Assembly (NCBI GenBank): GCA_025765615.1
Contig: JAIVFJ010000048.1
Coordinates: forward strand, 248,001-312,000
Direction of reading: 5' to 3'
From: Zopfochytrium polystomum
Lineage: Eukaryota; Chytridiomycota; Chytridiomycetes; Chytridiales; Chytridiaceae
DNA: 64,000 nt
Positions within the stretch are counted from its first letter, which is position 1, and each line of letters starts with the position of its first letter. Below the pieces are notes generated by a model that saw only the letters and a program-made list of their open reading frames with translations, was not told the DNA's origin and ran no database searches. The translations under genes were made by a program, and so were the position numbers. Shown here piece by piece: positions 48,700 through 62,073 of the stretch.

Positions 48700-51274
48700 A
48701 CCCAACCAAGTCCATACTTCTCATACAGCAATTTCAACCTCTCGCCAAAAGCATCCTGCTTAAACCATGTTTCATCTCTCTCCAATACTGACTTCCAAAT
48801 GGAAATAATATCAATTGACAGGACACGTCAGAAATCAGCACCACGTGATGTAAAGCGAATCATAGAGGATTCTTTGGACGCCCTCAATTCAAAAAATCTC
48901 GAAGCCTCACAGAAGACTGCCTCCACCCACACTTCCTTTAAGCAACAACCAACATTATGGCTAATCACAAGTCCAGAGCCAGGATCCAACATTTGAACGA
49001 CAAAATCCAGTTCTGGTGATTGATCTTGCGACATATGATCCATAGTGTGAAAGGCGTGGTTCAAGTAAGCAGAAAGGAGACACATCAGAGACTGTGTAAT
49101 CATTGGAGATGCCAAATGGAAACCAACGACTTGTTTGCGAAGCAGGCGGACAGCTTTCATCACTAGGAATCCATTCCAGAGAGAAACATTTTCCAACGAG
49201 GTTTTAAATGTTTCTCGTTCAAGATCTTCAAGCAGTAAACGTTCCAAATCTTCAATTGATGCAGATTTTTTGTTGATAAGGATAGCCATCTGTTCAGTAA
49301 ACGCTATGGTAAATGCCTCCGAGACGTATGACAAATCCTCATGAATTCTGTTCCACATAACGACCATATCAGACAGAGTTATAAAACTTAGATGTCAGAT
49401 GTCAGATGTCGAATCACTGTCATTACAACACGTTCCATATTTTCGACAAGCTCCGAATCAAAACCCCATTTGTAATCAATAAATTGAACCAATGGCTGTA
49501 CGTGCTCCACAAATCCGCGCTGTGCTAGGACGTTCGACAGTACTGGAAAGCAGCTACCATGAAGGTTGCTGTCCACAGAATTTTTTCGCAGAATAATTTG
49601 GAAGGAACTTGAGAATTGCGTTTAAAAGCTGAAGAAGCATTCCGTCAGACATTTCTGGTGCCAAGCAAGCGATAAGTTTTCCAACACCTTCCACTTTGTT
49701 TAGTTTTGACAATACTATAGGAATACATTGTTCAATGTGGTGTAAACGGAGTTCAGACTTATTGTTGCCCAAATTGTAAAGCAGATCCAAATGTTCGAGC
49801 TCAATAGCAAGCACAAATGTAGAATGGTAGCGCTGGCCTGACAAATTGTGACACAGAGCTTTAGCGTTCCGATCAATCTCAATGGCGGATCGAATATAAT
49901 TGAGATGACAATCTTCACTTCCACAAATTGGAAGATAATCCAGTGTGGTTGAATAACGGATGTTGGAATAGCAGCGAATCAGCTCATCAACATTTGATTC
50001 GAATTCTCCACTGTTGGGTCCAACATAATGATAAGACAGTTCAGACAGACGAAAGTCCAAAGATCTCAAACAATTAAACATATAGCCAGATTCTTCAAAT
50101 GACTTTGTCCTTACAATATCAGCAAGAATAGTGATGAGCTTTGGTGCTTGTTCGCCAATCACATTTGCATTCGCGAAAAGACAAAGTGAATGCAATAATT
50201 TGAGTTGTCTTTCAATGAGTGCTTTATAGGCAGGGACATCGGACTTGTCAATTTCAATTTCAGAGATGGTTTGTAGCATAGTGTCAACTGCGAGTTCCAT
50301 TACCTTGTCTGAATCAAAGTACCACCAAAGCCATACAGGTTGTTTACCACAATTGTTGGGATCCATTTCTTGAACCACGATTTGTTTCCAAAATGGAATC
50401 CAATCAGGACTGGTGCAAATGGGCCGAATAATACCAGTCCGTGTCCATGCCGTCTTGACAGTGAATTTGAGTACATTAAGGAGGTCCCATGCCTGACGGA
50501 CAATGTCTGCAGAGAGTGCTGGAAGAAGTGCCATAACAGCTGTAACAAGCAGTCGTGGTAATTGCAAAGAAGGATCTACTCCCCGATCAGATTCATTTTC
50601 GACTGGAATTGATATCGTTTTGCAACGTTCAACAAGGGTTCCGAGATGATTTTTGACGTAGGTTTTCAAGTATTGAAGCGCTTCCAAAGCTTGATCACTT
50701 TCAAAGCTGCTGGTCAGTGAGTTCATGAGATAGACATGACCGCTGTCACGACCATCATAAGCTCTATCAATCAAGCCCTTCCAGAATTCCAAACGCATCT
50801 CAAATGGCCTCAGCCAAAGGGACTGCCCAACCTTGATGGAAGAATTTAGGGCTTGGGCAGAAAGTTTGTCCAAATTGCAGGCAGGGGATCGCAGGATGCT
50901 ATCGATGGGGAATAGAAGGGAGATTGATTGTAAAATCGTGACATCATGATCTTCCTCTGAGGCATCGTGATGAAGATCAAATGTGTGTGACAGATCTATG
51001 TAGCTCCGAACAGCGGCCAGTACAGAGAAGAAGAAAGGGCTCTGGCTTTCATAGAGCATGCTCTTTGGCCTCTCCTGAAGGCAGTCCTTTGTAGCTGACA
51101 TGAGGCCAATTCGGAGGACGGGATCAATAAGCAATGGCTTTACAAAACAACGTCCGACGACTGATCAGGCAAAGGAGCAGCAGCAAGACAGTCGAGTAAG
51201 ATCCAAAAAGGTCAGTAAACTGCAGATGGCACAGATCACTTCTTTGGGAAGGCGAAAAAGGAGCTGGTGTTGGA
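48700..51274 (-). pseudogene. F-box-like protein, copy 1 (pseudogene)
   Basis: Paralogue of the gene at 59212-61809. Lesions relative to that copy: ATG replaced by ATC near 51,274; CGA to TGA near 51,162, inside the segment after the F-box; one extra A in a run of A near 49,583; a 14-nt expansion of the 7-mer agatgtc (three units against one) near 49,392-49,412. The remaining frames are 51134-49554, 49576-49388 and 49367-48828, with homology continuing to about 48,700. No single product can be made. Confidence 0.85.
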
Positions 51275-51429: not shown

Positions 51430-51644
51430 ACGTGAACGGTCTTGGTGTAGGAGGAGAGAATAAAATAAGAAAAAAAATCCTATAATATGTTTGGTGTGGG
51501 AGAGAAAGGAGTGAGAGAAATGTAGAACCAGATGTTCAATAAAGACGAAATACAATGAATATGTTGGTGCTGCTTGATGGGGATCATATATAGTGTGTGG
51601 GGGAATGCTAAAGAATAGTATTTGAAAAAAAATCCAAAAAATTC
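51430..51644. repeat. Left boundary repeat of the 7-kb insert
   Basis: Closely matches about 58800-59029 (shared phrases: atatgtttggtgtgg, gatgttcaataaagacgaaatac, ggggatcatat, aaaaaaaatccaaaaaa). It ends abruptly at 51644, where the chitinase frame begins. Confidence 0.75.
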
Positions 51645-54600
51645 TACTGCACGACGAGAACCGTGCCGTCAGGTGCTGGCTGTTGGCAGCTAACGCAAGA
51701 CTGCGGCATTACGCAAGCTCAGTTGGAGCAATTCAACTCATATGACAGTGCGTTCTGCTCACACTTAGTAAGCGGACAGACATACTGCTGTACATCGGGT
51801 GGGTTACCTCCAACCGGGCCCTCTCCATCTGCCAATGGTACATGCGCTCTGTACTATGTGAAGAGTGGAGATACTTGCTCAGCTATCGCCCAAGCCACAG
51901 GCACTAACTATGCGAACTATGATGCATGGAATGCCAATAACTGGCAGTGGCACGGATGCTCCGGCCTGTTGCCTGGGGATGTGATCTGTGTCTCTACTGG
52001 CACTCCACTCCCTAACCCGCAACCAAAGCAGAACACAGACGGGAGCTGCTACGCATACACAGTCCAGAGTGGCGATACATGCGATGCACTTGACAGGAAG
52101 TACAATCTGAAGACAGAGCAGATCGAGTCATTCAACACACTCACCTTCGGATGGCTGGGATGCAACAGACTGCAGGCCGGTGCTGTAATCTGTCTCTCCA
52201 CTGGCTCCGCTCCTTTGCCGCCTGTTGATCCTGCTGCTGAATGCAGACTGCAGAGCATGGTCAATGGGAAGCGCAACGGGACCTGTGTACTGAACACATG
52301 CTGCAGCAAGTGGGGCTTCTGCGGTACTACAGCCGATTTCTGTAGGCACAGGATGCCAGTCCAACTGCGGTATGGGATACCCCCAATCTGCTACATCACC
52401 TCCAGCACATAGCCAGTACAGAGTGGGATACTATGCGACGTGGACCAGAGGCAACGCATGCACTGCGAGTTCCCTGTTGCAGTACAACCTGACTGGCTAC
52501 ACGCACATCATACTAGCATTTGCGACCATTACCAGCGACTACAAGATAGCATTCGATGCAAGCGCACAAGCTGCACTATCTGAACTGGCGAAGCTATCGG
52601 GTGTGAAGCGCATGGTGTCGATTGGTGGATGGGGGTTTACTGATGATCCAGCGACTCAGCCCATATTCAGCCGGATGGTAGCTAATGGCAGATCAGTGTT
52701 CATCCAGTCTCTCGTTGCTATGCTGAATGCAGGTACAGCTGATGGGTTCGACCTAGACTGGGAGTATCCCACTGCAAGTGATAGGGGCGGCAATGCACAG
52801 GACATACCGAACTACCTGCAGCTGTTTAGTGACATGAGAAAGGCCATGCCCAATGCTCCTATATCTGTGACTGCACCCGCTTCACTGTGGTACTTGCGTG
52901 GCTTCGATATCAAGGCAATCTCCTCATACGTTGACTTTATCAACTATATGACCTATGACTTCCACGGGCAATGGGACTATGCAAACAAATGGACAGGGCC
53001 ATTCCTCAGGTCGCACGTCAATTGGACTGAGACAGTAGATGCTCTCTCGCTGATAGTGAGAGCAGGTGTCCCGAGCAACAAGATCACACTCGGTATCGCC
53101 CACTACGCGCGCAGTTTTAGAATGTCAAGCACAGGATGCACCCTGCCTGGATGTACGTTCTCATCGCAAGTAGCAGACGCTGGCACGTGTACTGGCACAG
53201 AAGGCATATGGACTCAGCCTGAGATTGATGAGTACGTGAGACTGTATGGGGAACACTTCAATCGGTGCTTCGACACCCAGTCCAGGTCTATGATTGGTAC
53301 TTGTGGGAACCAATGGGGAGCATATCTCACAGAAGATGAGAAGCAATACAGGAGACAACAGGCGGCAGCAATGAATCTCGCGGGAACGATGGAATGGGCT
53401 ATTGACATGCTGCCATCAATACAGACAATACAGCCAGTGATAGTTACCAATGCTAGACAGGGTATCTCCTATGACAGCCAGAACATCACTAAGGCATACT
53501 GCGATCAGTTTGCAGACTACAACCTACTGAACATAGACTCAGTACCAGAGCAATGTCGCAGGCAGACACTATGCAGGGGAGTCATGAGGAATGTAACTGA
53601 CGCAGTGTCCAAATTCAGACAGCTGGATACTGATGGTGACTACCCTGGCTACTTCCAGGCGCAGGTAGAAGCCACGAAAGACTATATGTCAGGTCAGCTA
53701 GTACGGTTCATGGCAGCGAACGGGACCAGGTACTTCCGCTGTACCACAGGCTATACACTCAATGGACTGTGCTGCAATAACGCAACAGGCACCGGCTGGG
53801 TGAAGGGATGTGACTCGAGCTCCACCTGTACCACAGGATCATCGAATGGAGTGACTGACTGTGACAGCAACGTGATGCAATTCCTGGTGACAGTGCCCCA
53901 AGTGGGACAGAGAGTGCCAGAGTACACGCTGACTGCCGTGAACGAGACTGGGTTCTTCGCTGATGTGAAACGCTATCTTGGGCTAGATCCCACATGGGTA
54001 CAGTACGGAGACCAGGTGATTAACCTGAACAAGGCATCCGTGCGGCAAGGACAATCCAATGTGTGTAGGCGACAGGATGTACTGGCATAAGTTCCCGGTG
54101 TTGAACAGAGACAAGGTACAATTGCCAGATCCACTCGATACTGCCCGGCTGTTGATGTCGAGGATGGACGGATATCTGTCGCAGTTTGCAATCACAACCT
54201 CCGGACTTGATTACAGTGGCACATTCAATGCTATGGTTGGCATGTATCCCCTGATGGCATTCGCTGACACAGTGAACAATGCACAGACAACGTATGACGA
54301 GGGGAAGGATGCAGCGGAGAAGCGAAGGAGGAATGGCATATTCGCTATAGTGGGTGCCGTACTTGGTGCTCTGCTGTTTGCAACTGGGATAGGTGCTCCG
54401 TTTGTTGTAGGCGAATGGGCTATTGCAGTTACTGTGGGCGAGGTTATCATAACTGGAGCCGATGTTACGACCACAATCATAGCAGCTGTAAAGAACAGGC
54501 CAGAGGCATTCAACATAGTGGGTGCTGTACTGGCTGTGATGTTGTCGGCATTCCCGGCTGGTAGTGACCTGCGGTTGCTGTGGAACTTCCGTACTGTAGC

Positions 54601-54712
54601 CGAGTGGAAGGCACTGTCTGGCATTCAGCTCAGAGAGGGTATAATGTCAGAGTACGAGACGCAGGTATATGACCGCATGAGGCCGAGATTACCCCAGTGT
54701 GGCAGACATTAG
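51645..54712 (+). pseudogene. Killer toxin alpha/beta-like chitinase, disrupted
   Basis: Domains in order: Cys-rich start, LysM 1 (YYVKSGDTCSAIAQATGTNY, about 51,855), LysM 2 (YTVQSGDTCDALDRKYNL, about 52,057), a hevein-type chitin-binding region (CCSKWGFCGTTADFC, about 52,300), GH18 chitinase with the catalytic signature DGFDLDWEYP (52741-52770), a Cys-rich region, and a C-terminal part with two hydrophobic segments (AIVGAVLGALLFATG, NIVGAVLAVMLSAFP). This is the layout of fungal subgroup C chitinases and of the alpha/beta subunit of yeast zymocin, in which chitin binding and the hydrophobic part serve toxin entry. There is no ATG or signal peptide at the left edge, and frameshifts lie near 52,340 and 54,063, so it is truncated and inactive as read. 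No introns. Confidence 0.82.
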
Positions 54713-54757
54713 GCACTGTGATGTGGTCACCAGAGTGCAGTTTTAAACTGTAGCTAA

Positions 54758-55189
54758 TCAGCACTCGGCCTGAGCGAATGCACCGAAAGATGCACTATCT
54801 TGTGCTCGTTTCATAGTACCATCCGAGATGCTAAGTGTACGCATCTCAACCTCGGGTATATCCAGAGCGTATATAATGTCAGCTGAGCTGAGCTCGAGAC
54901 CGGCGAAGAAATCGAATCTAAATATAGCTGCTCCTAGCGGGGCGAGGATCGAATTCAAGATGCGAGTGATTCTGGCTCCGTCATGCCCGTATATGATGCC
55001 CAATATGTTGGCTACTTTCACTCGCATGTTAGCCACGAACACAGCGCCTGCCATGCTGAATTTGATACCCTTCATTGACCAGAACAGTACCTTACTCTGC
55101 AACGCATCACCAGAGGCAGCCTCATTCTGGTATGTGCTGGACTCGATTACTGCCTTGTCAGCAGATGGCACGTAGGGCAGGGAGTTCAA
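54758..55189 (-). CDS. ORFan in virus-like insert
   Basis: 143 codons from ATG 55189. The sequence is balanced and protein-like (LGIIYGHDGARITRIL, LSSADIIYALDIPEVE) with a hydrophobic segment, but I recognise no domain. Its start lies exactly where the repeat of 55187-55315 begins, so its true N-terminus may have been replaced. Confidence 0.45.
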   Translation of the reverse strand: MNSLPYVPSADKAVIESSTYQNEAASGDALQSKVLFWSMKGIKFSMAGAVFVANMRVKVANILGIIYGHDGARITRILNSILAPLGAAIFRFDFFAGLELSSADIIYALDIPEVEMRTLSISDGTMKRAQDSASFGAFAQAEC

Positions 55190-55315
55190 GCCCCAGTGCG
55201 GTTGCTGAGATTATGGCAGGTATGCTGAAGGAGAGCAACACTAAGTTCAGCAGCAGCGTTATCAGCCAAGCATATGAACAGCAGATGCGTATGCCAGTGC
55301 CAGATGATGGGAACA
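55187..55315 (+). repeat. Internal direct repeat of the virus-like insert, copy 1
   Basis: About 129 bp, nearly identical to 58615-58743. It covers the first 34 codons of the following ORF plus a few bases upstream. Confidence 0.85.
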
Positions 55316-56166
55316 GTGACTTCATGCTTGCATCAACCATCAGTATCACTACAGCAGGTGAGTATGACTTCGACACACCATACTATGCTCTCTGTCGGTG
55401 CAAGGAAGAGCCCCGCATGCAAGTGGCAGCTACGTACAGCAAGGAGCACAACCTGGATGACATAGTTCAGGACAGCCTGAAGCGTATGGCAAATGTCATT
55501 GAGAGTCACCTTACTGTGTCTAGCAGCTACGTTGTGTCACGCTACTTGAAGGTAATCTCCGCTGAGTCTACAGCAGCAGACGGCACGTTCGATGTGCAGT
55601 GGCTGGAGGCTAGTGATCAGCGCCCCGCTATCCCTCGACTCACAGTACCTCACGGCCTTTCTGTATACAGTCTCCCCGGGCTGCGACTGGCTACTAAGCT
55701 GACAGAGGCTATGGTGCAGGAGAGCCTGAATCGTGCCAAGCATCAAGCAGACGATGCCCAGTCTGAGGATCTAATGTCTCTGCTGACAGGCACAGGGCAA
55801 GTGACGCTGTATTACTCGAACAGTGCCAGTGATTCACTCATCAAGCGTACAGCACATAGCGACAATGTGTCATCTGTAGTACGCAAGCACGGATGGCCGC
55901 TGTTCATCACTAGCAGGGAGCATACGCAGTCACTATTCAGCAGCCCAAAGTCGCGTCTCATGTCTCTGCTTATGATGACCAGCTATATCTGCCAGAAATA
56001 CAGCATACCAGCTGCTAGAGACGAGATAGTGGATTTCGTGTCCATACTCGATGCCAGTCTGGAGACAGTGGATGTGAGTAAGCCAATGACCAGCACCACA
56101 CAGTGCGACTTCATGCTATACACACAGTGCAATTTCTTGCTCTTGCTGTCTCTGATCATTGTGTAG
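55213..56166 (+). CDS. ORFan in virus-like insert, 317 codons
   Basis: ATG 55213 begins MAGMLKESNTKF, within the duplicated segment. The product is about 317 residues, mostly soluble, Ser/Thr-rich, with a hydrophobic end (CNFLLLLSLIIV). No family recognised; it could be a virion or replication protein, but nothing in the sequence decides this. Its last 180 bp overlap a convergent minus-strand frame. Base composition and lack of introns match the neighbouring polymerase and chitinase, not the host genes. Confidence 0.55.
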   Translation: MAGMLKESNTKFSSSVISQAYEQQMRMPVPDDGNSDFMLASTISITTAGEYDFDTPYYALCRCKEEPRMQVAATYSKEHNLDDIVQDSLKRMANVIESHLTVSSSYVVSRYLKVISAESTAADGTFDVQWLEASDQRPAIPRLTVPHGLSVYSLPGLRLATKLTEAMVQESLNRAKHQADDAQSEDLMSLLTGTGQVTLYYSNSASDSLIKRTAHSDNVSSVVRKHGWPLFITSREHTQSLFSSPKSRLMSLLMMTSYICQKYSIPAARDEIVDFVSILDASLETVDVSKPMTSTTQCDFMLYTQCNFLLLLSLIIV

Positions 56167-56711
56167 CTATCATCAACCCACCGTTCTCTTCTCTGTGCTA
56201 GATGCTGGATCATGGCCTCCATCTTCTGTGTTGGTGATACTCTCATGTTGCATATGTTCAAGCTGACCATTGTCACGCAAGTACCATCAACGAGAATGGG
56301 GAACACATGACATGGCACGAACAAGCGCGGGATGTACAGTGTCTTCGGCTCAGGTGAGTACCATGACTCAGGCGGGATGCTAGGTGCATGATACGGTGGC
56401 TGTACTGACAGTGAGTCAATGTAGTCCAGCACAGCAAGTCGCGTCACGAGCATGGCATTCAGTGTAGGTGATGTGCCTGATTCAAGTCTCCAGTCCATAG
56501 CATGTAGCTCATTGCAATATCCCACATTGTCACCTGTATCGTCAGTGCCAAGATCAAGCTCAGGTAGTTCCGCCTCTGCGACCTCTATGTCTTCCATACT
56601 CAGTTTCAAGGCATTGCGGACAGCAGTATGCCGAGTACAAGCAGGAGTACGTGTGTCAAGTGTATGCACCGGCACCTGTAGGCGGCAACCTGCATCTAGT
56701 GAGGATCCCAT
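55983..56711 (-). pseudogene. Minus-strand ORF after the DNA polymerase, possibly its C-terminus
   Basis: A 242-codon frame from ATG 56711. Acidic and Pro-rich stretches (MEDIEVAEAELPELDLG) are followed by a region with YIPRLFVPCHVFPILVDG. It overlaps the end of the polymerase frame above it by about 55 bp, so it may be the polymerase C-terminus after another frameshift or a separate gene. No domain recognised. Confidence 0.4.
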
Positions 56712-58628
56712 CCACAGTGGATCGCAAACTGCGCATAATCATGCTCCTGCTGGGCGTATGCATGAAGGGATCGAAGGATGATTTCTTCACATTGACTATT
56801 GCCCCATCATCGTTCACATTCTCCACGTACAGTTCCCCTGCTCTCTTCCTCTCCCGCACTAACTGTGAGACAGGCACCATGCCATTCTCCAGGCGCATCT
56901 CAATCGACTGCAGCACACTAGTCATGTATACAGATGCAGCAATCTGCCCTCTGAACTTGCATATACAACGACAGCAGGCAGTAGCCATCTCGCGTATGAT
57001 TGGTGCCCGGTCCTTGCGCTTACTGGCTATACCCTTCATTGTCTCCTTCATATTCTCTGGTACTGGCTTGTCTATCTCCACTCTCGCATTCAGCTCCAAG
57101 TGTCTAGCCATGTTCCTCTCTGTGGCAAATGCCTGGTACTGCTGCGCTGATCTGTATGCATTCTGCTCCTTGTCTGCATTGAATGCTGAGTATGATCTCC
57201 CGCCCATGCCGTAGTACATTTTCTTGTCCAGCAATGACTGTGCTTAGTGTCTCTTCACTGCACGATTGCTTAGTCTCTCTCTTCCATACAAACACAGAAT
57301 CAGTGTCACCGTATATGATGTCGTAGCCCAGCATGTAGGACACAGCCTCAACCACAGTGATCAGCCATCTGCCGATTGATGTGACAGATGAACCTGCAAG
57401 ATAGTTGAACAGGCCGGAATTGGATGATGCAAACGCACCGTACATGCTATTGGCTGCTACCTTCAGCGCCCATCCTGGCTTGGTGCTCTTGCCGACTTGC
57501 GTCCTGCGTTCGATGAGTGTCTGCAATGCTATTGCTGCTGATGACCTCCTGGTGCAGTCAATCTGAGCTACACGCCCACTGATTCCGATGTACGTATTCT
57601 CCTGATCCCAGTACACCGCGCCCTCCTGGATCTGGCCATTCGCAACAAGCGATCTCAGTGCACGTTTCGCGCTCTTACACTTGAATGGTACGTATGATGG
57701 AGAAGAGACTGGAGCATGTGTTCCCTGCATCTCGCTCAGTAGGTCATGTACTGTCTCTGCGGATATGTTGACTGAAGCCATGATAGTGGGATACATAGAA
57801 GCAAAGTCCATCAATAGTACGCCAGAGTAATACCCTCTCTTGGGCTGCAATACCCTTGCTCCTGACACTACCTTAGATGCGTATCTGTCGCCGGACCAAT
57901 CGATCACCTGTCCACAGGAGAGTGCGTATGACGCAATCAGAGTAGCAGCCATCGTACCTGTGATATAGCGAGTGGAATCAGTCAACGGGCACTTGCAGTA
58001 CGTGCTCAGTGTCACTATCTCATCCAGGAAGCCTGATGCTTTGCCCAGTGTCAAGTGAAGGTATGCGTCGTGCATGTTGTAGAAGATCATCTCAGATATG
58101 TCCTCCTCCGTGTCAGGCCGTATATCCATGCGTGGCTGTATGTGCTTCCCTCCCAGCCCATAGTGATTCGCCATATCATCCAGTGATAGTGACTCGAAGT
58201 CAGACCGATGCACCTTGTCAGCATAGCAGAATGTGTCAACAACCACAGTCTGTGGTAGTACCAGATCCACTCCCTTGCCTACTGCGCCTAGATTCCGTGC
58301 CTCGAAATACTGATCCAGTATGTGCGGAGCATGAGCTGCTAGCACCGGGATGTCGTAGCTGAATCCAAAGTGTATGAACACTATGTCGGGATTGTTGCAC
58401 AGCAACCAGGCAATGACCCATGACACTAGATCAGCTGAATTACTGACTTTGGCTATGTCATATCCGCGCTTAGCATCGAACAGTGCAGCATTATGAGTGC
58501 CACATACATACCTGCATAGCCTCCGTCCATCCCACGTAACTATGGCAGCAGATATCAGCGGATCACAGGGCAGAGGGTATGCTCTGTTGCGTAGTGCCGA
58601 TGTCTGTTCGATGTCAAGTCCCCGTTCC
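56656..58628 (-). pseudogene. Family B DNA polymerase, broken
   Basis: Minus strand. Motifs in order: exonuclease I DIE (about 58,610), exonuclease II FGFSYDIP, exonuclease III-like region, palm motif A MDFASMYP (57779-57812), motif B KVAANSMYG (57431-57465), SIGR, motif C YGDTDSVF (57289-57314). These are the residues of an active RNA/DNA-primed family B enzyme of the delta or large-DNA-virus type; I see no clear protein-primed insertions. A frameshift near 57,240 moves the frame to 57234-56656, which continues the palm and thumb. The N-terminal domain is cut off at 58,628 just before the first exonuclease motif; codons upstream belong to a duplicated fragment and flank. Confidence 0.85.
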
Positions 58629-58743
58629 GTTGCCGAGATTATGGCAGGTATGCTGAAGGAGAGCAACACTAAGTTCAGCAGCAGCGTTATCAGCCAAGCA
58701 TATGAACAGCAGATGCGTATGCCGGTGCCAGATGATGGGAACA
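58615..58743 (+). repeat. Internal direct repeat of the virus-like insert, copy 2
   Basis: Copy of 55187-55315 carrying only the first codons of the ORFan; it then runs into non-element sequence at 58743. It forms the right end of recognisable insert DNA. Confidence 0.85.
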
Positions 58744-58799
58744 AGGAAAGAATGTGGAAGGTCTTGGCAATGAAAAGCTGAATAATGTTTCTGGAAAAG

Positions 58800-59029
58800 G
58801 TCACGTGACAATGCGGAATTGCGACGAAGTGGAGAGAACAATATAAGAAAAAAAAATCATACAATATGTTTGGTGTGGAGAGAAAGTAGTGAGAGAAATG
58901 TAAAACCAGATGTTCAATAAAGACGAAATACAAGAAATACAATTAATATGTTAGTGCTGCTCGAGTGGCATGGGGATCATATTTGAAGTAATGTAAAGAA
59001 TAGAACATGAAAAAAAATCCAAAAAAATT
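58800..59029. repeat. Right boundary repeat of the 7-kb insert
   Basis: Counterpart of 51430-51644 in the same orientation. It lies in the 3' flank of F-box copy 2, so the spacer between the two F-box copies is present on both sides of the insert. Confidence 0.75.
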
Positions 59030-59211
59030 CAAAGAATATTTGAAGTAATGTAAAGTAATGTAAAGTAAAGAAGTGAAGTAGGTAAGTGGAGTGAGTGAAC
59101 AAGATGTTCAATAAACGTAACATCTTACGACATTATGTGATTGAATATGTTAGTCGGGCGAGTCGGAAATGGGCAGGGCGATCAGTACTATTTTTGACAG
59201 ACCGTAAACTT

Positions 59212-61809
59212 TTATTTGAAAACAAGTCCGTACTTCTTATACAGCATTTTCACCCTCTCACCAAACAAAACCTGCTCAAACCATGTTTCATCTCTCTCCA
59301 ACACTGATTTCCAAACGGAAATAATATCAGTGGACAGCACATGTCGGAATTCCGCGCCAGTTGACGTTAAGCCGCTCACAGGGGATTCATTGGACGTCGC
59401 CCTCAATTCAAAAAATCTGGAAGCCTTACAGAAGACTGCCTCCACCCACACTTCCTTTAAGCAGCTGGTGACATTGTTTGTAATCACGAGTCCAGAGCCA
59501 GGATCCAACATTTGAGCAACATAATCCAGTTCTGGTGATTGAACGTCAGACACAGGGGGCTTGTCGCTACGATTTATAGTGTGCGGGTAATGATTGTTCG
59601 AGTAAGCGGAAAGGAGATGCATCAGAGACTGTGTAATCCTTGGAGATGCTGATTGGAAACCAACGACTTGTTTGCAAAGCAAGCGGACAGCTTTCATCAC
59701 TCAGAATCCACGCCAGAGAGAAACTACCTCGAGAGAGGAATGAAGTCTCCTGCGACCTCGTGCAAGATCTTCAAGCAGCAAACGTTCCATATCTTCAATT
59801 GATGCAGATTTTTCGTTGATGAGGATAGCCATCTGTTCAGTAAACGCTGTGGTAAATGCCTCCGAGTAAGACAAATCCTCCTGAATTCTGTTCCACACCA
59901 CGACCATATCGGACAGAGTTATAAAACGCAGATGTCGAATAACTGTAATTAATGCATTTTCCACCCTCGAACGAAACCGTTTGTAATCAATTTTTCTGAA
60001 TAAAAATTGAACCAATGGCTGAACGTGCTCCACAAATCCGCGCTGTGCTAGGACGTTTGACAGTACTGGAAAGCAGCACCCATGAAGGTCGCTGTCCACA
60101 GAATTTTTCACAGAATAATTTGGAAGGAACTTCAGAATGGCGTTGAAAAGCTGAAGAAGCATTTCGTTTGACATTTCCGGGGCCAAGCAGGAAATAAGCT
60201 TTCCAACACTTTCCTCCTTGTTCAGTTTTGATAAGACTATAGGAATGCATTTTTCAATGTGGTGCAAACAGAGTTCAGACTTGTTGTTGGCTAAATTGTA
60301 AAGCAGATCCAAATGTTCGAGCTCAATGGCAAGCAGAAACGTAGAATGGTAGCGCTGGCCTGACAAATTGCAACAAAGATCGTCTGTGTAAACATTCGGA
60401 TTAATCTCAATGGCGGACCGAATATACTTGAGATGACATTCAACGCTTCCACAAATTGGAAGATACTTCAGTGTGGAATCATACGGGGTTTGGAGGTTGG
60501 AATAGCAGCCAACCAGCAAGTCAACATTTGTTTTGAATTCTTCACTGCTGGGTCCAACATAGTGATAAGACAGTTCAAGCAGACGAAAGTCCAAGGATTT
60601 CAAACAACTATACATATAGCCAGATTCTTCAAATGACTTTGTCCTTACAATATCAGCAAGAATAGGGATAAGCTTTGGTACTTGTTTGCCAATCACTTTC
60701 GCATTCGCATAAAGACAAAGTTGAAATAATTTGAGTTGCCTTTCAATGAATGCTTTATAGGCAGGGACATCAGACTTGTCGATTTCAAGTTCGGAGATGG
60801 TTTGTAGCATAGTGTCAACTGCGAGTTCCATCACCTTGTCCGAATCAAAGTACCACCAAAGCCATACACGTTGTTTACCACACTTGTTGGGATCCATTTC
60901 TCGAACCACGATTTGTTTCCAAAATGGAATCCAATCAGGACTGGTGCAAATGGGACGACCAGTCAGTTCTGAGCATTGTGTCTTGACAGTGAATTCAAGT
61001 AAATAAAGGAGGTCCCATGCTTGACAGACACTGTCTGCAGAGAGTGCGGGAATAAGTGCCACAACGGCTGTAAAAAGCAGTTGTGGTAATAGCAAAGATG
61101 GATCCTCTTCAGATTCCTGCTCAGATTCCGGCTCAGATTCTGGCTCAGATTCATTTTCGACTGCAATCGATATCGTTTTGCAACGTTCAACAAGGGTTTC
61201 AAGATGGGTTTTGACATAGGTTTCCAAGAATTGAAGCGCTTCCAAAGCTTGATCGCTTTCAAAGCTGCTGGTCAGTAAGTTGATGAGAGCACCGTCACCG
61301 TCATCAGCTCTATCAATCAAGATCTTCCAGAATTCCAAGCGCATCTCAAATGGCCTCAGCCGAAGGGACTGCCCAACCTTGATGTCAGAGTTTAGGGCTT
61401 GGGCAGAAAGTTCGTCCAAATGGCGGGCAGGGGATCGCAGGATGCTATCAATGGGGAATAGAAGGTGGATTGATTGTAAAATTGCATGATCTTCCTCTGA
61501 GGCTGGAAGATCAAACGTGTGGGACAGATCTATGTAGCTCCGAACAGCGACCAGTATAGAGAAGAAGAAAGGGCTCCGGCTTTCGTAGAAACTATCCTTT
61601 GGCCTCTCCCGAAGGCAGTCCTTTGTAGTTGACATGAGGGCAATGCGGAGAAGGGGATTAATGAGCAATGGCTTTACAAAACGATGTCCGACGACCGATC
61701 GGGCAAGGGAGCAGCAGCAAGATAGTCGAGTAAGATCCAAGAAGGTCAGCAAGCTGCAGATGGCACAGATCACATCGTGGGGAAGGCGAAAAAGGAGTTG
61801 GCGATGCAT
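59212..61809 (-). CDS. F-box-like protein, copy 2
   Basis: ATG 61809; uninterrupted 702-codon frame to TGA at 59701. Homology to copy 1 continues in frame for about 160 more codons to 59212 (VMKAVRLL ... YKKYGLVFK), so the TGA may be a truncating mutation or copy 1 may carry the change. Residues 5-45 look like an F-box (LFRLPHDVICAICSLLTFLD), the module that binds Skp1 in SCF ubiquitin ligases. The rest is a long helical, Leu-rich repeat-like domain with a Glu/Ser-Glu repeat expansion absent from copy 1 and no recognised family; it presumably binds a target. Intronless, unlike the host genes to the left. Confidence 0.65.
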
Positions 61810-61851
61810 GGTTGACTTGTCAATCTTTAACGACCTTTTCTTTCTTTTATT

Positions 61852-62073
61852 TCACTTTTTTCCACCCTTCGCTCTTCCTGCCACGACTCTGGCCTTGAGC
61901 GGTGAATTCGGCCCTTTCTTCGCCACAGTCATTTTCGCTTGCTTCGTTGCTTTCGTGAGCCCCTTTTTAGGCTTAGTCGTTTTTGCTCCTTGTTTCGTTA
62001 CAGTCGTTTTCGCTGATTTCGTCCCTTTTTTCGTCGTTGCAAGCTCGCTCAACTTGTCCCTTGCAACCCCCAT
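61852..62073 (-). CDS. Small basic Lys/Thr/Ala-rich protein
   Basis: 73 codons from ATG 62073, almost all Lys, Thr, Ala and Gly, with repeated KKG, TKKG, AKxTV phrases resembling a histone H1 tail or a ribosomal/mitochondrial basic protein. No globular domain. The start context (aagaATGgg) is reasonable. It may be a small chromatin protein or a chance low-complexity frame. Confidence 0.4.
   Translation of the reverse strand: MGVARDKLSELATTKKGTKSAKTTVTKQGAKTTKPKKGLTKATKQAKMTVAKKGPNSPLKARVVAGRAKGGKK

Follow-up and report, generated by a model that had tools for sequence, protein, structure and literature searches.

Yeast virus-like elements of the pGKL1/2 type, which are cytoplasmic and extrachromosomal, combine their own family B DNA polymerase (PolB) with a multisubunit-type RNA polymerase, a capping enzyme and a poxvirus-type helicase, and a chitinase with LysM, ChtBD1 and GH18 domains has been described for yeast elements (PMC8472843, PMC6211774). 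Arguments about the origin of these killer elements have drawn on poxvirus-like transcription genes (PMC6211774). The chytrid Gonapodya has been reported to carry a chitinase gene adjoining viral genes and an NCLDV-type capsid gene (PMC5294986), and an endogenous region of Rhizophagus holds RNA polymerase, PolB and capping genes (PMC10640383); according to the latter paper, no dsDNA virus infecting fungi is known.

The element described here, known from nuclear integrated fragments alone in the chytrid Zopfochytrium polystomum, resembles the pGKL1/2-type elements in its own PolB, multisubunit-type RNA polymerase, putative helicase and LysM/ChtBD1/GH18 chitinase, the capping enzyme being a weaker point of likeness. 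In contrast to them, its PolB is of the RNA-primed type, full length and without a terminal-protein domain, its RPB1 and RPB2 are separate genes, its helicase looks like SF3, and its GC content is near 50%, against an A+T content of 73 to 76% reported for Debaryomyces elements. With the Nucleocytoviricota it shares PolB, large RNA-polymerase subunits and hints of a D5-like helicase and of capping, whereas its core array of ~22 kb is short beside genomes of tens of kb to Mb and its subunits are compact.

Structure of the locus

The window, a 64,000-nucleotide stretch of the Z. polystomum genome, contains at positions 51644-58743 a block of foreign, intronless DNA set among host F-box paralogues (Table 1). 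Composition was checked across the block, and GC is higher inside (0.50 to 0.53) than in the flanks (about 0.41 to 0.46), in line with the preliminary description of intronless DNA unlike the host genes; the coding frames are broken. The two flanking F-box paralogues were also recovered, the left one as a paralogue by sequence, the F-box domain itself being detected by Pfam in the right-hand ORF only.

The block had been described as one insert of ~7 kb between direct repeats of ~200 bp. The repeats exist, but they are copies of a host F-box spacer with a third copy at C135:56292-56478, to which both are closer (left 84%, right about 88%) than to each other (80%), and the block consists of several joined fragments; a single insert with terminal or target-site repeats is thus ruled out. 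DNA comparison with other contigs showed it to be a mosaic in which at least four fragments of a larger element are joined. They derive from the chitinase with its neighbor, an RPB1-like gene, PolB and the region where PolB meets RPB2, all of which occur elsewhere in the genome in copies that are longer or open and in which the order differs. The joints between fragments are short overlaps of 5, 5 and 9 nt, and ~10 nt of filler follow position 58743 before host sequence resumes at 58754. The RPB1-like gene has left another scrap at 58614-58743, which accounts for an internal 130-bp repeat (55186-55315 and 58614-58743, 95%), and the overlap of two ORFs on opposite strands simply reflects the junction of two fragments at 56135-56139. 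What the block presents is a patchwork, not ordinary host genes in a fixed set.

Table 1. Features of the window and their matches (C numbers are contigs of the same genome)
Feature	Positions	Strand	Evidence
Host left F-box-family ORF	49557..51164	-	77% to window 59704-61851 over 527 aa; 89% to C135:53546-54604
Host F-box spacer, left copy of ~200-bp repeat	51453..51641	.	84% to C135:56478-56292; 80% to 58831-59026
Chitinase pseudogene, secreted type, three frames	51644..54712	+	LysM x2, ChtBD1, GH18, hydrophobic tail
Remnant of secreted-looking gene after chitinase	54758..55190	-	Within collinear fragment 51644-55190; peptide stretch in common with 317-aa ORF C64:65905-66855
RPB1-like fragment (former orphan 1)	55186..56139	+	96% to 677-aa ORFs C64:60737-62767 and C491:21252-23282; 96.9% DNA to C64:61846-60893
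RPB2-like N-terminal fragment (former orphan 2)	56135..56738	-	95% over residues 1-206 to 921-aa ORF C115:4793-7555
PolB C-terminal part, other frame	56659..57218	-	DNA_pol_B E 1e-4, just under cut-off; 89.7% to C70:119399-119959; partly 96% to C319
PolB exonuclease, palm, fingers; cut off before exonuclease domain	57232..58622	-	DNA_pol_B E 6.3e-24; 96.3% to C104:40239-38850
Second RPB1-like scrap, same start base as fragment at 55186	58614..58743	+	95.4% to C64:61846-61717 and to 55186-55315
Junction filler	58744..58753	.	Between RPB1 scrap end and start of C135-like host sequence
Host F-box spacer, right copy of ~200-bp repeat	58831..59026	.	Inside 58754-62022 = C135:56555-53343, 87.8%
Host right F-box protein ORF	59704..61851	-	Pfam F-box E 2.4e-5

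Genes of the element

The chitinase proposed from its LysM, GH18 and hydrophobic-tail layout was recovered with all its domains by Pfam and translation, though as a pseudogene in three frames: two LysM domains and Chitin_bind_1 in frame 51612-52412, GH18 (E 4.5e-50) in frame 52294-54090 and the hydrophobic tail in frame 54029-54712. It keeps the DGFDLDWE motif of GH18, lacks its first residues and is 96 to 98% identical to a 969-aa ORF at C64:62649-65555; the whole fragment 51644-55190 corresponds to C64:62783-66333 (91.6% DNA identity). The secreted-looking gene after the chitinase has no Pfam match.

The motifs DIE, DFASMYP and YGDTDS announced for the polymerase are all read in its translation, together with NSMYGA. 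DNA_pol_B was detected in the minus-strand frame 57107-58942, and a second piece, in frame 56659-57243, reaches 21.7 bits where the cut-off is 23. About 100 residues at the start of the 612-aa ORF come from host spacer and an antisense RPB1 scrap. The element encodes a complete PolB of the RNA-primed type: the window PolB and its relatives P0002, P0006 and P0012 match PF00136 above the cut-off, PF03175 (organellar/viral, protein-primed type) stays below it in P0002 and P0012, and RNA-primed PolBs align along all 760 aa of the chain, which has a complete fold and no terminal-protein domain. The earlier impression that the polymerase does not look protein-primed was thus correct, and a pGKL-type protein-primed enzyme is ruled out. 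Structural matches are archaeal and Pol delta-type family B polymerases, similar in fold yet only 18 to 19% identical; phi29-type chains are absent from the best 60 of 112 structural matches, which alone excludes nothing, and the structural search in BFVD favored no single viral family.

In a tree that took in host Pol alpha, delta and zeta exons and no virus references (none of NCLDV), 14/14 element sequences fell in one clade of their own with a long stem and a support of 1.0. The host polymerases, encoded by separate PolB genes, lie outside this clade, which rules out an origin from host Pol delta or zeta. The clade takes in proteins from Clydaea, from a Melampsora record and from metagenomes, and one Melampsora gene model reads PolB, then RPB2.

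The two ORFs first taken for orphans are not orphans: 55186-56139 belongs to an RPB1-like gene, and 56135-56738 is the beginning of an RPB2-like one. The former, inverted relative to the chitinase in comparison with C64, starts just past the DFDGD active-site motif and hence lacks it. Rpb1 domain 2 is recognized in the 677-aa ORFs on C64 (E 2.9e-6) and C491, and RPB1-like ORFs carry the active-site motif N(L/G)DFDGDE with a PDB profile match at E 4.6e-8. The 921-aa ORF on C115 matches RNA_pol_Rpb2_6 (E 2.2e-10), and RPB2-like ORFs carry GDKxxTxHGQK with a PDB match at E 5e-16. These matches span the catalytic neighborhoods only (about 73 and 210 residues), in two separate genes with open frames of 656 to 794 aa (RPB1) and 815 to 921 aa (RPB2). 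A multisubunit RNA polymerase is thus represented in the element by two proteins that resemble its large subunits.

Copies elsewhere in the genome

Pieces of the element occur on 37 contigs, a count that is the union of several sequence searches of this genome, and form at least three lineages (A, B and C) of a multi-copy element. Longer copies share the gene order capping-enzyme-like, X1, SF3-helicase-like, PolB, RPB2, further ORFs and RPB1, with a collinear core of ~22 kb. This order is the same in lineages B and C, both with large open frames and no introns, and the helicase-PolB-RPB2 neighborhood is also found on the lineage A contigs C104 and C319. The LysM/ChtBD1/GH18 toxin-type chitinase belongs to lineage A only, where it adjoins RPB1. 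Stretches of 20 to 30 kb with element copies have a GC of 0.45 to 0.52. Lineage C copies show dS of 0.21 to 0.26 and dN/dS of 0.02 to 0.16, indicating purifying selection, and therefore diverged while functional. The copies are embedded in host DNA on long contigs, their ends ragged and differing, and one has received a Ty3 retroelement (LTRs 99.7% alike) whose integrase is the only one seen.

The putative SF3 (D5-like) helicase is suggested by a Walker A motif, a W..RR pattern and a weak best PDB match to ASFV C962R (E 0.044), with no primase domain seen in the protein. The candidate mRNA-capping enzyme is suggested by mRNA_cap_C in 2/3 members (E 0.082, below the Pfam cut-off) and, by eye, by motifs IV/V and a methyltransferase-like motif; a PDB profile search with it returned no capping enzyme among its matches. 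The predicted structure of X1 has no fold (pLDDT 31), with no Pfam or PDB match worth using, and X2, X3, X5 and the lineage C X6 were paired across lineages by position and not by BLAST.

Unlike in the Nucleocytoviricota, no Pfam match to a capsid, an A32-type packaging ATPase or VLTF3 was found in the element ORFs and fragments scanned, from copies that may be incomplete, and no relative was found among the IMG/VR viral contigs scanned. No terminal inverted repeats occur between the available ends of C175 and C374, beyond which the true element ends may lie. On C206 the same genome holds a lone 53-aa piece of an NCLDV capsid (PF04451 E 2.6e-20), with no element gene within the 1.5 kb read around it.

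Discussion

We consider the block, with a probability of about 0.84, to be a dead patchwork of at least four fragments, derived from a self-transcribing DNA virus or virus-like element of chytrids that has not been described before. A relic of this kind was already suggested by the preliminary description, and the separation of the PolB clade from the polymerases of the host argues for it. We propose a model in which the element would rely on a polymerase and a helicase of its own for DNA replication, and would transcribe and cap its own mRNAs, probably outside the nucleus. In lineage A, the fungal wall would be the target of a secreted chitin-binding chitinase, which would serve either to cross it or, like its counterpart in yeast killer elements, to carry a toxin. 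DNA of the element that was in the cell would have been captured at a chromosomal break in the F-box gene array, and the captured fragments would have been joined with short overlaps and then have decayed.

More tentatively, and at slightly less than even odds, the copies may represent a new lineage of fungal DNA replicons, of family level or higher and about 22 to 28 kb in size, combining an RNA-primed PolB and an SF3 helicase with a capping enzyme and a compact RNA polymerase of two large subunits. One end would carry secreted proteins that attack the wall, as exchangeable cargo, and a capsid would be either absent or of an undescribed kind. Such a lineage would be a DNA-world NCLDV relative, either arriving independently at the way of the yeast self-transcribing killer elements or sharing ancestry with them.

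What kind of replicon left these copies can be read in several ways. RNA-primed PolB, RNA-polymerase subunits and the hints of a D5-like helicase and of capping make up the NCLDV expression and replication set, as would befit an encapsidated virus, be it a small or reduced relative of the Nucleocytoviricota or a new phylum, with capsid genes too divergent to be seen and a chitinase aiding passage through the wall. The capsid fragment on C206 and the co-occurrence of NCLDV-type capsid and chitinase genes in Gonapodya (PMC5294986) point the same way, but the former has no element gene in its surroundings, the long arrays lack capsid and packaging ATPase matches, and the collinear core is only about 22 kb, so that this reading falls just short of an even chance. 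A capsid-less, cytoplasmic, plasmid-like element, working as pGKL-type elements do and inherited without particles, is possible with the odds against it: the functional set (a polymerase and an RNA polymerase of its own, a candidate capping enzyme, a killer toxin of chitinase type) is the same, the LysM/ChtBD1/GH18 layout is as described for yeast elements (PMC8472843, PMC6211774) and Pfam scans of the element ORFs and fragments yielded no capsid gene, whereas PolB scores far above the PF00136 cut-off and only below that of PF03175, RPB1 and RPB2 are not of the fused ORF6 type, GC is about 0.45 to 0.52 instead of 24 to 27%, and the available ends show no terminal inverted repeats.

A nuclear transposon-like element (Polinton-, Starship- or Helitron-like) moving by its own integrase would also be multi-copy, integrated and split into diverged lineages, yet we regard it as highly unlikely, since the copies revealed neither an integrase or transposase nor inverted ends belonging to the element, copy ends are ragged and differing, the window joints resemble end joining, and such transposons do not need RNA-polymerase subunits; a Polinton is ruled out by the lack of an integrase other than that of Ty3 and by a PolB that is not of the protein-primed type. 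Decayed host genes (a nuclear PolB and a killer-like chitinase) or an assembly artefact are barely credible, for although fungi, this host included, have GH18 chitinases and nuclear PolBs, the host Pol alpha, delta and zeta lie outside the PolB clade, the nearest host-like GH18 matches are only 27 to 35% identical, and the copies lie within long contigs of host DNA, one with a retroelement landed in it.

As probable fragments of a self-transcribing virus or virus-like element of chytrids, these sequences belong to a field in which dsDNA viruses of fungi are almost unknown. A collinear element with several lineages gives concrete genes for seeking live carriers, and relatives exist in another chytrid (Clydaea), in a rust-fungus record (Melampsora) and in metagenomes. 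The finding also bears on the origin of the cytoplasmic self-transcribing killer elements of yeasts.

Results

The window is C48:248001-312000 in an assembly of the chytrid Zopfochytrium polystomum (80.16 Mb, 761 contigs). We dissected the block between the two F-box ORFs by comparing its DNA with further copies from that assembly, giving the pieces listed in the table. Adjacent fragment matches overlap by 5, 5 and 9 nt, and a filler of about 10 nt precedes the host sequence, which starts at 58754; from these short overlaps and this filler, we read the block as several fragments that were probably end-joined at a break. All the pieces named in the preliminary description are there: a broken-frame LysM/ChtBD1/GH18 chitinase with its hydrophobic tail, a pair of unassigned ORFs and a DNA polymerase of family B (PolB), here split over two frames, whose motifs DIE, DFASMYP and YGDTDS were confirmed in translation. 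GC content is 0.50 to 0.53 in the block versus about 0.41 to 0.46 in the flanks. The element at this locus is dead, being truncated, frameshifted and rearranged. The ~200-bp flanking repeats once thought to bound the insert belong to the F-box array. Their spacer also lies on C135, between two F-box genes without an insert, and the window copies are 80% alike mutually, and 84% and about 88% to C135; this insert-free spacer and closer match rule out repeats of the element's own.

Fragments of the block and related features of the genome
Feature	Window	Elsewhere in genome	Remark
Chitinase and next gene	51644-55190	C64:62783-66333	91.6% DNA identity
RPB1-like piece	55186-56139	C64:61846-60893	96.9% DNA identity; inverted relative to chitinase
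RPB2 start and PolB end	56135-56897	C115:6952-7714	98.2% DNA identity
PolB C-terminal sequence	continues to 57218		
PolB	57232-58622	C104:40239-38850	96.3% DNA identity
Second RPB1 scrap	58614-58743	C64:61846-61717	first base same as in first RPB1 scrap
RPB1-like ORF	55066-56166	677-aa ORFs on C64 and C491	96% identity over 321 residues
RPB2-like ORF (-)	55986-56738	921-aa ORF on C115	residues 1-206 95% identical
Secreted-looking gene	54758-55190	C64:65905-66855	317 aa
Secreted-looking frames		C374:14002-17240	834 and 294 aa
Ty3-type retroelement		C374:28515-33820	
Reverse-transcriptase element		C384:10766-16055	RVT_1 E 8e-9
F-box spacer		C135:56292-56478	
Capsid piece		C206:50226-50384	53 aa; PF04451 E 2.6e-20

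The two ORFs earlier called orphans are, from their identities and domain matches, pieces of RNA-polymerase subunit-like genes, RPB1 and RPB2. The 677-aa ORF on C64 matches Rpb1 domain 2 (E 2.9e-6), as does the C175 relative (E 1.1e-8); in the alignment, longer RPB1 copies carry the catalytic motif N(L/G)DFDGDE, directly after which the window piece starts. Against PDB, a profile of four RPB1-like sequences found RNA-polymerase largest subunits (E 4.6e-8, over about 73 residues), and the C175 RPB2 relative, which carries GDKFATMHGQK, found second-largest subunits (E 5e-16, over about 210 residues). The 921-aa ORF matches RNA_pol_Rpb2_6 (E 2.2e-10).

Genome searches with PolB, RPB1, RPB2 and chitinase matched 37 contigs, a count from which rows hitting host-derived ends of the queries, antisense overlaps, host-like rows and rows with E > 1e-5 were removed, and which probably includes some haplotype pairs. 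The near-identical contig pairs C51/C466, C1/C514 and C64/C491 are probably haplotypes of a heterozygous genome, which would affect copy counts. Three lineages could be distinguished: A (window, C64, C491, C115, C104, C319, C70), B (C374, C94) and C (C175, C384, plus RPB1 on C491). Longer copies array large open frames on both strands, in the order capping-like+, X1-, X2-, helicase-, PolB+ (with one internal stop), RPB2+, X3-, X4-, X5-, X6+, RPB1- on C374 (X1 to X6 are further ORFs). Gene order is identical on C175/C384, the correspondence between B and C being supported by BLAST for capping-like, X1, helicase, PolB, RPB2 and RPB1, connected via lineage A for X4 (E 5e-11 and 7e-7), and positional only for X2, X3, X5 and lineage C X6; the X2 stretch is present in C384 and absent from C175. 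Lineage A has adjoining pieces of helicase, PolB and RPB2 on C104 and C319; X6, RPB1 and chitinase stand together on C491, and RPB1 and chitinase on C64. As covered by these copies, the core spans about 22 kb without the C374 retroelement.

That Ty3-type retroelement, with a chromodomain integrase, lies between PolB and RPB2, and its LTRs are 99.7% alike, hence a recent insertion. On C384, a reverse-transcriptase element is fused in frame to a broken lineage C RPB2. TTTAAAA, a possible own promoter, occurs upstream of 7 of 39 gene starts (C374, C175, C384), which is not significant when set against a positional control.

For five genes of lineage C (C384 versus C175; for RPB1, C491 versus C175), dS was 0.21 to 0.26 and dN/dS 0.02 to 0.16, and thus these copies diverged while their genes worked. 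Window comparisons with other lineage A copies (seven) gave dN/dS of 0.12 to 0.52, between constraint and decay, and lineage B pairs (six) 0.11 to 0.32; the near-identical A pairs C64/C491 and C491/C115 hold too few changes for interpretation.

A protein search with PolB returned 15 matches, comprising the host's own P0001, P0006 of Clydaea vesicula (40%), six metagenome proteins (35 to 41%) and others at E 1.7e-13 or weaker; P0020 is a further Zopfochytrium database protein. RPB2 gave five, one of them a gene model of Melampsora americana in which RPB2 comes after PolB. In a FastTree phylogeny of 41 sequences, the element PolBs (14/14) formed one clade with support 1.0, apart from the exons of host Pol alpha, delta and zeta (polymerases named by eye from motifs), from PolBs of archaea and bacteria and from seven further PolBs of the database. 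Lacking NCLDV, herpes, Polinton and pGKL references, the tree demonstrates separateness from the host and not placement among viruses.

Discussion

We recognised no published description of this element in the literature searched; Zopfochytrium was used in an RNA-virus screen (PMC7482067).

The chitinase is open on C64, where its 969 aa comprise a signal-like N-terminus, a pair of LysM domains, ChtBD1, a GH18 domain bearing DGFDLDWE and a hydrophobic stretch at the C-terminus, and the closest host-like GH18 rows reach only 27 to 35% identity. Yeast virus-like elements have chitinases of this layout (PMC8472843), and the lineage A enzyme could equally serve as a killer toxin or in wall passage. 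The secreted-looking gene immediately after it, without a match in Pfam, might be its partner. Lineage B has instead, at the opposite end and adjoining the capping-like gene, two overlapping, serine/threonine-rich, secreted-looking frames, for which Pfam gave nothing better than E 0.36; they are possibly comparable cargo.

A lone NCLDV major capsid protein piece lies on C206, with no element genes beside it in the 1.5 kb read. It could have been left behind by a second giant-virus contact of the orthodox kind, or could be a detached remnant of the capsid that belonged to the element.

We propose that the element DNA would be replicated by its own PolB and a putative helicase, and that, without recourse to the host nucleus, mRNA would be made by an RNA polymerase of the element with two large subunits, together with a probable capping enzyme. 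Genes for the PolB and the RNA polymerase are shown; the remainder of the scheme is inferred, including that the secreted proteins would be active at or beyond the wall.
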